Below, in pieces: positions 12,100-15,520 of a stretch of 64,000 nt of DNA. Location: assembly GCF_009363255.1 (NCBI RefSeq), contig NZ_CP045318.1, positions 906,001 through 970,000 of the forward strand, in the 5' to 3' direction. Every line of letters starts with the position of its first letter. The first letter of the stretch is position 1. Made by a program: the position numbers and the translations under genes. This stretch comes from Roseivivax sp. THAF197b. GTDB lineage: Bacteria > Pseudomonadota > Alphaproteobacteria > Rhodobacterales > Rhodobacteraceae. The notes beneath the pieces are model-generated. The model made no database searches. It saw only the letters and a list, made by a program, of their open reading frames with translations, and was not told where the DNA came from.

Positions 12100-12431
12100 A
12101 CCATGCCCTCGGGAAAGACATGGCGGCCCTCCTCGAAGGGCAGATCCGCGACCCAGAGCGCCGCGTTGCGGGGCAGCGGCCCGTAGAGATGCGGGAAAAG
12201 CTGCCCGCCGCGCGACGGCTCCCATTTCAGCGGCGACAGATCGTCCGGATCGTAGGCCAGGAGCTTGAGACCTGTTTCGCCCGCGAAATGCTTGGCCGCG
12301 GTCTCGGCTGCCTGTTCGGCGGTTGAGAAGTGAATGTAGCCATCGGCCACGTCGATGGGCGCGCCCGCACTCGTTCCCGCGCGCTCCAACTCGGCCCATT
12401 CCTCGGCCCGGAGGATCTTGTAAATCAGCAT
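12096..12431 (-). CDS. DUF952 family protein
   Basis: A 111-residue protein reading [14 protein letters not shown] near the start, [16 protein letters not shown] and the later [20 protein letters not shown]. This is the DUF952 pattern, a small cytoplasmic fold with no assigned reaction. ATG 12429-12431 gives the family length; the open frame upstream to 12515 has no support. Its stop overlaps the pyrD start, so it heads a three-gene minus-strand unit with pyrD and arsC. Confidence 0.85.
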
Positions 12432-12559
12432 GCAGGCGATGTGCCCGTTGCTCGCCCGTGGGTCAAGTCCGAGACGTATGCTGCCGGAAAACCTGACTGT
12501 ACGAGGCGTTTTCAAAGGCTAATGTCAGTCTCATTATTTATTTTTTTGGAGTATTTTCA

Positions 12560-13798
12560 GTGGCCTCCCATTCCATCCGTTTTTTGCAAGATGCCGAAGC
12601 CGATATCGAGAAGATCCGCAAAGACAACAATACATGGAGTTCCGGCGTCAGCGCGGAATCAATGGTCCGCACCGCAATCGACACCGCACAGGACTGGGCG
12701 ATTGGCGCGCGCAACAACCTCGTCGCGATCCGGTCGGGCGCGGACCGCGTCGACGACCAGCTGTCCGTGCAGAAGGCCCGGTGGGACAATTCGGTCGGAA
12801 AGGCATTCCGGCTGTTTTTCGGCTGGGATTTCGACGATGGCGCGAAACATATCGACAAGGTCGATACGCGCCTGCGCAAACTTCATGACCGGATCGATGG
12901 CGGCCTCACGGTGAAATGCCGACCGGGCTCCGGCTTCCGAAGCGGGAAATGCGATGATTCGACGGCTTTCCAGCGGTTCGGCTGGTTCGCAGGCGACAAC
13001 ATCAACCTCTGCCCGATCTGGTTTGGCAAGGATGCCGATTACCGCGCGGCGGTCATCGCGCATGAGGTCCTGCACGCCATCGGCGGGTTCGGCACGGTCG
13101 ATCTGAAGAACGATCGGGGCCAGACGGTCTACGGCACGCCACTTGCGCTTCTCTTCGCGCAGGATGAGCCGACAAATGCCCGCCGCAACGCCGAGAATTA
13201 CGAACAGTTCTTCACGTATCGGGCGCGCCACTTCACGCTGCCGCGCACCGGTGTCAGCGGTTGGACGGGCGTGCCCGAAAAACCCGATGCTGCCTGCATG
13301 CATCCCAACGGGAACGCCTATTTCTTCAAGGAAAACAAGTATTATCGCTTCGTGCCCGGCAGCGGCGTGGACAAGGTGGGCAGGATTGGCGTCGATGGTT
13401 GGGGTGGGCTGCCCACCCACCTTGATGCCGCGGTCGAACACCCCAACGGGGCGGTCTACTTCTTCAAGGGCGACAAGTATTACCGCTACAAGTTCAATCC
13501 CGACAACATGGACAAGGTCGGACGGATCGGCATCGACGGCTGGAGCGGTGTGAAGCATCCCGTGCAGGCCGCTTTCCGCCATCCCGATACGGGCGATGCG
13601 TGGTTCTTTCGCGACCTGCATTGTCAGCGATTCGATTTCGGACCGGACAAGACGACCCAGGGCGGGGTCATCCATGACAGGTTCCCGCAGCTTTACGGCT
13701 ATGTGGACACGGCGCTGTTCTATCCGCCGCAGGACAAGCTCTATGTCTTCGTGACCGACCGCTACACGCGGATCTCCCGTGGATCTTTGCCCCGCTAG
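12560..13798 (+). CDS. M35-like (aspzincin) zinc metallopeptidase fused to a hemopexin propeller
   Basis: A 412-residue protein in two clear parts. Residues about 20-220 resemble the M35 deuterolysin/lysine-specific endopeptidase fold: HEVLH (168-172) is the zinc site with Glu169, GTVD (178-181) supplies the third ligand Asp181 nine residues on, and TVYG and NAENYEQFF match the M35 end. Cys120, Cys131 and Cys151 could form disulfides. Residues 236-412 hold four hemopexin repeats with AACMHPNGNAYFF, AAVEHPNGAVYFF, AAFRHPDTGDAWFF and TALFYPPQDKLYVF. There is no signal peptide. GTG 12560 has GGAG eight bases upstream in a very AT-rich leader. Activity, export and target are inference. Confidence 0.85.
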   Translation: MASHSIRFLQDAEADIEKIRKDNNTWSSGVSAESMVRTAIDTAQDWAIGARNNLVAIRSGADRVDDQLSVQKARWDNSVGKAFRLFFGWDFDDGAKHIDKVDTRLRKLHDRIDGGLTVKCRPGSGFRSGKCDDSTAFQRFGWFAGDNINLCPIWFGKDADYRAAVIAHEVLHAIGGFGTVDLKNDRGQTVYGTPLALLFAQDEPTNARRNAENYEQFFTYRARHFTLPRTGVSGWTGVPEKPDAACMHPNGNAYFFKENKYYRFVPGSGVDKVGRIGVDGWGGLPTHLDAAVEHPNGAVYFFKGDKYYRYKFNPDNMDKVGRIGIDGWSGVKHPVQAAFRHPDTGDAWFFRDLHCQRFDFGPDKTTQGGVIHDRFPQLYGYVDTALFYPPQDKLYVFVTDRYTRISRGSLPR

Positions 13799-13957
13799 GG
13801 GGCGTTCGACGACCTTCTGGCGAAAAGCTCGGCGCCCGGGGCGGTTTTACCGGGGCGCCGGGGGCCCGACCGTCGCGTCAGCTTTGACTATGTCACGGCT
13901 CCGTTGCACCATCTGGTTACAGAACAACAAGACACTACCCGACAGAGAGGAAATTAC

Positions 13958-15520
13958 ATGTCGCTTCGTCTGCTTTCCAGCGCAGCCGTGCTGGCTTTAG
14001 TCGCGGGCACCGCCCAGGCCGAGTACACGCTGCACATCCTGCACACCAATGACATCCACAGCCGGATCGAACCGATCAGCAAGTACGATTCGACCTGCAG
14101 CGCCGAGGATGACGCGGCGGGCGAGTGCTTCGGGGGCATCGCGCGTCTCGCGAGCGCCATCGACATGAAGCGCGAGGAGCTGTCGGATGCGAACGTGGTC
14201 CTGCTGGATGCGGGCGATCCGTTCCAGGGTTCGCTCTTTTACACGACCTACAAGGGCGCGGCCGAGGCCGAGTTCATGGAGAAGATCGGCTATGACGTGA
14301 TGGCCGTGGGCAACCACGAATTCGATGACGGCCCGCCGAAGCTCGCGGAATTTGTCGATGCGGTCAGCTTCCCGGTGATCTCGGGCAATCTGGACCTCTC
14401 GGCCTCGGAAGAGTTGAAGGACCGCGTGCAGGATCACGTCGTGCTCGAAGTGGGTGGCCAGCGCATCGGCGTGATCTCGGCGCTTGCGACCGACACGGTC
14501 GAGACGTCGAGCCCCGGCCCGAACGTGACCTTCCAGGACGAGATCGACAGCCTTGCCGCCGATGCCGCGGCGCTGCGCGAGGACGGCGTCGACATCATCA
14601 TCGCGCTGACCCATGTGGGTCTGCCGCGCGATCGTCAGATCGCGGAGGCGGTCGCGGATATCGACGTGGTGATCGGCGGGCACAGCCACACGCTGATGCT
14701 CAACAACGACGCCGAGACCCCGTCCTATCCCGAGATGGTGGGCGACACGCCGGTGGCGCAGGCCTATGCCTATACCAAGTATCTGGGCCATCTCGCGGTG
14801 ACCTTCGACGATGACGGCAACGTCGTGTCTGCCGAGGGCAATCCGATGCTGCTCGATGCTTCGGTGACGCCCGACGAGGAGATCACCGCGCGCATCGCCG
14901 AAATGGGCGCGCCCATCGAGGAGATGAAGACCCGCATCGTCGCGGAAAGCACCGACGCGATCGAAGGCTCGCGCGATGCCTGCCGTGCGGGCGAGTGCCA
15001 GATGGGCAACCTCGTGGCCGACGCGATGCTTGCCCGTGTCGCCGATCAGGGCATCCAGATCGCGGTCCAGAACGGTGGCGGTCTGCGCGCCTCCATCGAT
15101 GCGGGCGAGGTGACGATGGGCGAAGTGCTGACCGTGCTGCCGTTCCAGAACACGCTGTCCACGTTCCGCGTCTCCGGTGCGACGATCATCGAGGCGCTGG
15201 AAAACGGCGTCGGCCAGATCGAGGAAGGGGCGGGCCGCTTCCCGCAGGTCGCGGGCATGTCCTTCACCGTCGATACCGGCGCAGAGCCCGGGTCGCGGAT
15301 CTCGGACGTGATGGTGGGCGATGCGCCCATCGATCCCGAGGCCATGTACGGCGTCGTGTCGAACAACTACGTCCGCAATGGCGGCGACGGCTATGCGATG
15401 TTCGTGGATGCCGAGGATGCCTACGATTTCGGTCCGGACCTCGCCGATGTGACGGCGGCGTACCTTGCCGAAACGGGGCCCTACACGCCTTATACCGATG
15501 GTCGGATCACCATGAAGTAA
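13958..15520 (+). CDS. Periplasmic 5'-nucleotidase / UshA-like metallophosphatase
   Basis: A 520-residue secreted protein. The signal peptide (MSLRLLSSAAVLALVAG, cleaved near AQA-E) is followed by the metallophosphoesterase motifs LHTNDIHSR, DAGDPFQGS, GNHEFDDG and GGHSHT, then the C-terminal nucleotidase domain reading QNGGGLRASIDAGEV and VLPFQNTLSTF. The family hydrolyses nucleotides, sugar nucleotides or 2',3'-cyclic nucleotides in the periplasm to recover phosphate and nucleosides. AGAGAGGA lies seven bases before ATG 13958. A strong terminator follows at 15558, so it is transcribed alone or with the peptidase gene. Confidence 0.93.
   Translation: MSLRLLSSAAVLALVAGTAQAEYTLHILHTNDIHSRIEPISKYDSTCSAEDDAAGECFGGIARLASAIDMKREELSDANVVLLDAGDPFQGSLFYTTYKGAAEAEFMEKIGYDVMAVGNHEFDDGPPKLAEFVDAVSFPVISGNLDLSASEELKDRVQDHVVLEVGGQRIGVISALATDTVETSSPGPNVTFQDEIDSLAADAAALREDGVDIIIALTHVGLPRDRQIAEAVADIDVVIGGHSHTLMLNNDAETPSYPEMVGDTPVAQAYAYTKYLGHLAVTFDDDGNVVSAEGNPMLLDASVTPDEEITARIAEMGAPIEEMKTRIVAESTDAIEGSRDACRAGECQMGNLVADAMLARVADQGIQIAVQNGGGLRASIDAGEVTMGEVLTVLPFQNTLSTFRVSGATIIEALENGVGQIEEGAGRFPQVAGMSFTVDTGAEPGSRISDVMVGDAPIDPEAMYGVVSNNYVRNGGDGYAMFVDAEDAYDFGPDLADVTAAYLAETGPYTPYTDGRITMK

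Follow-up and report, generated by a model that had tools for sequence, protein, structure and literature searches.

A putative M35 metallopeptidase joined to a hemopexin propeller in Roseivivax sp. THAF197b, apparently acquired as a single gene

The window analyzed here, a stretch of 64,000 nucleotides from Roseivivax sp. THAF197b (contig NZ_CP045318.1, positions 906,001 to 970,000), encodes a protein, P0001, in which an M35-type metallopeptidase domain is followed by the repeats of a hemopexin propeller (Table 1). The leader of the gene is indeed as AT-rich as the original prediction stated, and the only promoter-like match found between positions 12380 and 14000 lies on the opposite strand (0.6 expected). 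The database entry for the same gene, P0002 (378 aa), begins at Met35 and lacks the conserved head. As the N-terminus of P0001 matches the starts of its three closest homologs, which share the motif MxxHxIxF at this end of the alignment, we consider that P0002 starts too late and that the GTG start is correct. As had been foreseen, hydropathy revealed nothing resembling a signal peptide at the start of P0001, and an NCBIfam search with the protein gave no match.

Table 1. Features of the M35-hemopexin locus, in positions of the window
Feature	Positions	Strand	Remarks
Stretch that congeners lack between the two flanking genes	12433..13869		about 1.44 kb; from alignment blocks
AT-rich leader	12500..12559	+	31.7% GC, against 60.8% in the gene and 65.0% in the window
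Ribosome-binding-site-like GGAG	12548..12551	+	8 nt 5' of GTG; read from sequence
M35 metallopeptidase-hemopexin gene (P0001)	12560..13798	+	ORF, GTG start, 412 codons/aa
N-terminal head, residues 1-77	12560..12790	+	start motif common to 4/4 family members
Aspzincin_M35 (PF14521) domain, residues 78-218	12791..13213	+	Pfam 31.2 bits, cut-off 30 (marginal)
Zinc-site motif HEVLH-x8-D (H168, E169, H172, D181)	13061..13102	+	invariant in 4/4 family members (MAFFT)
Residues 229-239 (SGWTGVP stretch), which may be the strand of blade 4 that closes the ring	13244..13276	+	4.2 bits, under the best shuffle (5.8)
Hemopexin blade 1, residues 243-285	13286..13414	+	blade profile 71.3 bits
Hemopexin blade 2, residues 288-331	13421..13552	+	blade profile 76.0 bits
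Hemopexin blade 3 (worn), residues 336-371	13565..13672	+	blade profile 20.4 bits
Hemopexin blade 4 (first half only), residues 382-404	13703..13771	+	blade profile 10.4 bits

The aspzincin zinc-site motif that had been read from HEVLH and a downstream GTVD is present, with HEVLH at residues 168-172 and D181 nine residues after H172, and the Pfam search proposed for the two halves placed both over their cut-offs. The margin for M35 is only 1.2 bits, and the related proteins P0005 (20.4 bits) and P0056 (28.0 bits) fall below the cut-off. A profile of the N-terminal halves of four family members, compared with PDB sequences, matched AsaP1 (2x3a, E=0.0018; 2x3b, E=0.0031) and the peptidyl-Lys metalloendopeptidase (1g12, E=0.019), with unrelated chains appearing from E=0.079. 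HExxH, YG and the NAxNxExF block all lie within the matched parts, and hhalign against six M35 sequences gave E=2.6e-15. These profile matches, together with four residues invariant in four members, rule out a chance motif. Membership in M10 is likewise ruled out, as the motif reads HEVLHAIGGFG without a third His and no M10 or PGBD match was obtained, and so is a metzincin site (HExxHxxG), in which the third-ligand position would not be the Gly found here; the downstream NAENYEQF block is of the M35 type. HMMER and hhalign alike gap the segment that separates HExxH from the Asp and therefore do not pair D181 with the third ligand. The assignment of D181 depends instead on its spacing, which by eye equals that of 1g12 (eight residues beyond HExxH), and on a MAFFT alignment of 19 M35 domains, which sets D181 against the Asp of the other domains.

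Lysine-specific M35 members carry acidic residues in the specificity pocket, namely D154 and E157 in the Grifola enzyme. E212 and E215 of P0001 occupy the same positions, from which cleavage before lysine is predicted. According to the alignment, acids are also found at these positions in P0005 and P0056; P0003 carries T and Q, so that a lysine preference need not hold across the family. In addition, the YG tyrosine is missing in P0056. Cys120, Cys131 and Cys151 are conserved in all four members, and similar cysteines occur in other aligned M35 proteins, though some lack them. Cys131 and Cys151 are placed, by eye, like the cysteines of M35 proteins with signal-peptide-like starts, a pattern that fits an oxidizing site of action.

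The four hemopexin repeats of the original prediction were recovered as four detectable blades, two strong and two worn. Hemopexin (PF00045) scored 75.5 bits in P0001 (cut-off 21.3), with three stretches passing. For the blade profile, 55 pattern-picked blades from 36 other hemopexin proteins were used, with identical blades counted once and the rows of the window family, Streptomyces and animals excluded; it is still partly dependent on P0001, because similarity to P0001 is how the proteins that supplied the blades were collected. When residues 334-412 were shuffled 500 times, the highest score was 5.8 bits. The SGWTGVP stretch matches positions 35-45 of the profile and resembles the end of a blade, as a ring-closing strand would, but its score taken by itself lacks significance; the corresponding position scores -1.2, -0.2 and -1.7 bits in P0003, P0005 and P0056, respectively. 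The same four-blade pattern was found in P0003 and P0005, and the profile detected no fourth blade in P0056. The full-length family profile matched the hemopexin part of MMP-14 at E=8e-26, and other matrix metalloproteases (MMPs), vitronectin and hemopexin also matched. In MMP propellers a disulfide joins the first and last blades. Such a blade 1-blade 4 bond is absent here, as the only propeller cysteines are C246 in blade 1 and C355 in blade 3, neither of which is invariant.

Relatives with the same layout are few. A first word-based search with P0001 in 5.8 billion sequences returned 54 proteins, including, besides its own entry P0002, the full-length matches P0003 (52% identity) and P0005 (42%), and a further search added P0056 (38%). 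In the family alignment, identity with P0001 ranges from 39% to 52% among these three; their longest contigs measure 1.9 kb (P0003), 2.4 kb (P0005) and 3.5 kb (P0056). These three represent a lower bound, because the search depends on words in common with the query and overlooked relatives that are known to exist: residues 1-228 as query recovered P0001 alone, without P0003 and P0005, and the 54-protein search missed P0056 as well as the Streptomyces fusion P0057 described below. Pattern scans of genome contigs (60 and 224 matches) and viral sequences (71 matches) contained no confirmed relative, and neither a search of plasmid DNA for the gene nor a search of phage proteins gave a match. The full protein was matched in one of 41 genomes, its own, with eight congeners among the misses, and an alignment of the N-terminal half matched in five of 398 genomes of the phylum, its own included; in the other four matches, which are distant M35 domains, no hemopexin part was seen by eye. 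A literature search found no M35-hemopexin fusion in the titles and abstract openings listed, in a body of records with subscription journals mostly outside its coverage, and "aspzincin" and "hemopexin" together returned nothing. The M35-hemopexin pairing is thus real and rarely found, and both domain families were already known.

The two domains differ in their distribution. M35 exceeded the cut-off in 30 of 292 genomes of the order, and the hemopexin domain occurred in three of 284 genomes of the order and four of 398 of the phylum, the genome of the window included in each count; M35 is therefore not confined to the few bacteria of the original prediction. Single-domain M35 proteins are frequent in one genus of this family, g36 (e.g., L002-L005), several of them with signal-peptide-like starts by eye. 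The other two genomes of the order with hemopexin proteins belong to the same bacterial family. In G088, a protein of 665 aa (L061, 5508-7505, minus strand) has seven hemopexin repeats that flank a zincin-like region (HETGHIFHAPDE), for which M12 scored weakly (18.8 bits, cut-off 27); in G115 (L062, 3375-4820, plus strand), the repeats are followed by a stretch that looks like a cysteine protease by eye and has no Pfam call. Neither start passes the hydropathy threshold for a signal peptide. Of the other three genomes in the count for the phylum, G505 encodes two hemopexin proteins with signal-peptide-like starts, in which no protease part was seen, and G375 and G490 gave borderline hemopexin matches in short frames with a stop.

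Comparison with congeners bears on the history of the locus. Seven of eight congeneric genomes align to the window in one block ending at 12426-12471 and another starting at 13870-14012, with only 78-210 bp between the two, which defines an empty site; the stretch examined from the eighth genome, G004, contains the 5'-nucleotidase side alone. The search for the fusion in relatives and their neighborhoods that had been suggested gave no protein match in the flanking stretches or whole genomes of the eight congeners, and identified the three proteins of the same layout in the sequence collection. No mobile-element footprint was seen, and in a comparison with the nearest congener, G007, the two junction areas had no word longer than 7 bases in common. 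The original prediction had read a hint of acquisition from the AT-rich leader. The codon usage of the gene is the fourth lowest of 26 window genes, which is ordinary and rules out a compositional proof of transfer; the proposal of acquisition itself is sustained by the empty site and by the lack of a match in 40 other genomes. As a single gain in this genome requires fewer events than losses in all eight congeners, acquisition is favored, on distribution and the empty site and not on composition, and the gene was apparently acquired horizontally.

A second M35-hemopexin fusion was encountered among plasmid records, four of which matched; two of them, from Streptomyces, encode the M35-hemopexin proteins P0057 and P0058, with M35 scores of 129.1 and 107.7 bits. 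A tree built from 19 M35 domains separates P0057 and P0058 from the window type, which groups with M35 proteins of G211 (same family) and G341. The G211 protein scores 25.9 bits with Pfam M35, under the cut-off, and has no hemopexin part, and hhalign of the window-type profile against it gave E=4.5e-15. One origin for all six fusions was weakly rejected (AU test, p=0.035, with long branches). Because strong support is limited to one inner branch out of 16 and the tree contains several long rows, two origins are likely but short of proven, and the window-type and Streptomyces fusions probably arose separately.

Many other hydrolases are joined to hemopexin repeats among the 54 matches, a list gathered by likeness to P0001 and thus no census. 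Pfam identified C39-like peptidases in P0004 and P0008, C1A in P0011, P0015 and P0019, PGBD-M10 in P0013, S1 in P0016, C14 in P0017 and M12A in P0022; a PLD-like domain in P0039 and PhoD-like domains in P0040, P0041, P0046, P0048 and P0051 were also found, and P0014, P0018 and P0023 carry HExxH although Pfam assigned them no peptidase domain. P0013, on a contig of 2166 bases, displays the complete MMP layout, with PGBD, PRCGVPD, an M10 domain with HEAGHALGLEH and hemopexin repeats; its repeats resemble those of the bacterial matches, and it has no signal-peptide-like start. The lack of such a start is common among the hemopexin matches. Whether protease fusions lack it more often could not be supported, with signal-peptide-like starts in three of 12 protease-like proteins (P0004, P0008, P0011, P0013-P0019, P0022 and P0023) and in 16 of the 37 remaining non-animal, non-M35 matches, as the proteins are few and partly fragmentary. 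The calls were made by hydropathy, several starts may be cut, and P0004 and P0008 share their first 60 residues. It is possible, and we propose it only tentatively, that bacteria reuse a mobile hemopexin propeller with peptidases of unrelated families (M35 on at least two occasions, M10 with a switch motif, M12A, C1A, C14, S1 and C39), making MMP-like enzymes that often lack a signal peptide and are released by lysis or a non-Sec route, and that the gene studied here is one single-gene cassette of this kit.

For the protein itself, our best explanation, held with moderate confidence, is a horizontally acquired, single-gene accessory M35 endopeptidase whose hemopexin propeller, like that of MMPs, docks the catalytic site on its target. 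In such an enzyme, the propeller would bind a target protein or surface, and a zinc ion coordinated by H168, H172 and D181, together with E169 as the putative base, would allow the M35 domain to cut the docked target, perhaps before lysine, a preference that E212 and E215 may confer at P1'. A disulfide between C131 and C151 is predicted, and the protein would be released by lysis or a non-Sec route and act outside the producing cell. The place of action is the least certain part of this explanation. Given that the protein has no signal peptide and that none of three injection markers was found in the genome, we slightly favor release by lysis or a non-Sec route, with action outside the producing cell, over a role in the cytoplasm, and consider injection less likely than either.

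That the protein is never exported, and serves as an intracellular protease of a housekeeping or conflict type with a sensing or target-binding propeller, appears rather unlikely. A signal-peptide-like start is absent from all four family members and from both Streptomyces fusions, and also from the caspase-like P0017 and the trypsin-like P0016, which match defense-system protease models weakly; a gene with the annotation abortive infection family protein is found about 3 kb away from one of the Streptomyces fusions. However, no PADLOC model was matched by P0001, P0003 or P0056, the neighbors of the gene are by eye a pair of DUF952-like and dihydroorotate dehydrogenase genes and a 5'-nucleotidase, and the conserved Cys131/Cys151 pattern also speaks against this role.

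Injection into other cells, as cargo of a contractile injection system or a T6SS, is distinctly improbable. Hemopexin (PF00045) does appear among the effector domains predicted for extracellular contractile injection systems (eCIS) in one paper (PMC8213781). In addition, eCIS-type matches were obtained in G115, the same-family genome with a hemopexin protein, and a distant M35 domain in G413 (L033/L036) shares its protein with DUF4157-like and PGBD-like parts (by eye). Yet the genome of the window gave no match to the three markers searched, namely VipB (for which the control matched in E. coli), Pvc16_N and a phage-type sheath; in G115, Pvc16_N reached 101.9 bits and the sheath 30.1 bits (cut-off 31.4), but the hemopexin gene is about 0.7 Mb away; and G413 had no Pvc16_N match. 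The M35 protein of G413 adjoins another such protein, as is seen in contractile-injection loci (L033/L036). Least probable of all is a catalytically dead or differently working zincin-fold protein with the propeller as its functional part, for although the Pfam M35 score is marginal, P0056 has no YG tyrosine and P0003 no pocket acids, the H, E, H and D of the zinc site are invariant in four members, with 39-52% identity of the other three to P0001.

An extracellular, propeller-docked M35 endopeptidase, the reading we prefer, can be set beside several known systems. AsaP1 (2x3a) and the peptidyl-Lys metalloendopeptidase (1g12), both of MEROPS M35, share with P0001 the HExxH-x8-D, YG and NAxNxExF elements and a cysteine pair about 20 residues apart. 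P0001 differs in having no signal-peptide-like start, a hemopexin propeller, about seven extra residues between GTxD and YG, and, before the M35 domain, a distinct 77-residue head in place of the about 200 residues of the 2x3a chain. The Streptomyces proteins P0057 and P0058 likewise combine M35 with hemopexin repeats and have no signal-peptide-like start, but their M35 scores are strong and about 200 residues of other sequence stand in front.

Animal MMPs hold their substrates by a four-bladed hemopexin propeller, and their M10 catalytic domains are marked by HExxHxxGxxH and PRCGxPD. Like MMPs (e.g., MMP-14), P0001 has a predicted zinc endopeptidase followed by a hemopexin propeller, and the propellers are homologous; unlike them, it has an M35 catalytic domain, lacks the third His, PRCGxPD and a signal-peptide-like start, and gave no match to M10 or PGBD. 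The original prediction of a convergent MMP layout thus stands where the catalytic half is concerned, as this belongs to M35 rather than M10, and fails for the propeller halves, whose homology makes this a parallel pairing of domains and not a convergent fold. P0001 is one of many hydrolase-hemopexin pairings among its matches, and independent assembly of an MMP-like layout in bacteria is supported at the domain level by the sequences compared. A hemopexin-like protein in a bacterium is also represented by the Photopexins of Photorhabdus, putative heme-binding proteins for which the portion of the report available mentions no protease domain (PMC2266911). The M35-hemopexin finding bears, too, on the statement of a 2006 survey that the hemopexin domain is of metazoan origin (PMC1654190). 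If the enzyme is active, bacteria would have built the protease-hemopexin layout with another catalytic family, probably at least twice for M35, and these proteins would be small systems in which to study the contribution of a propeller to a protease.
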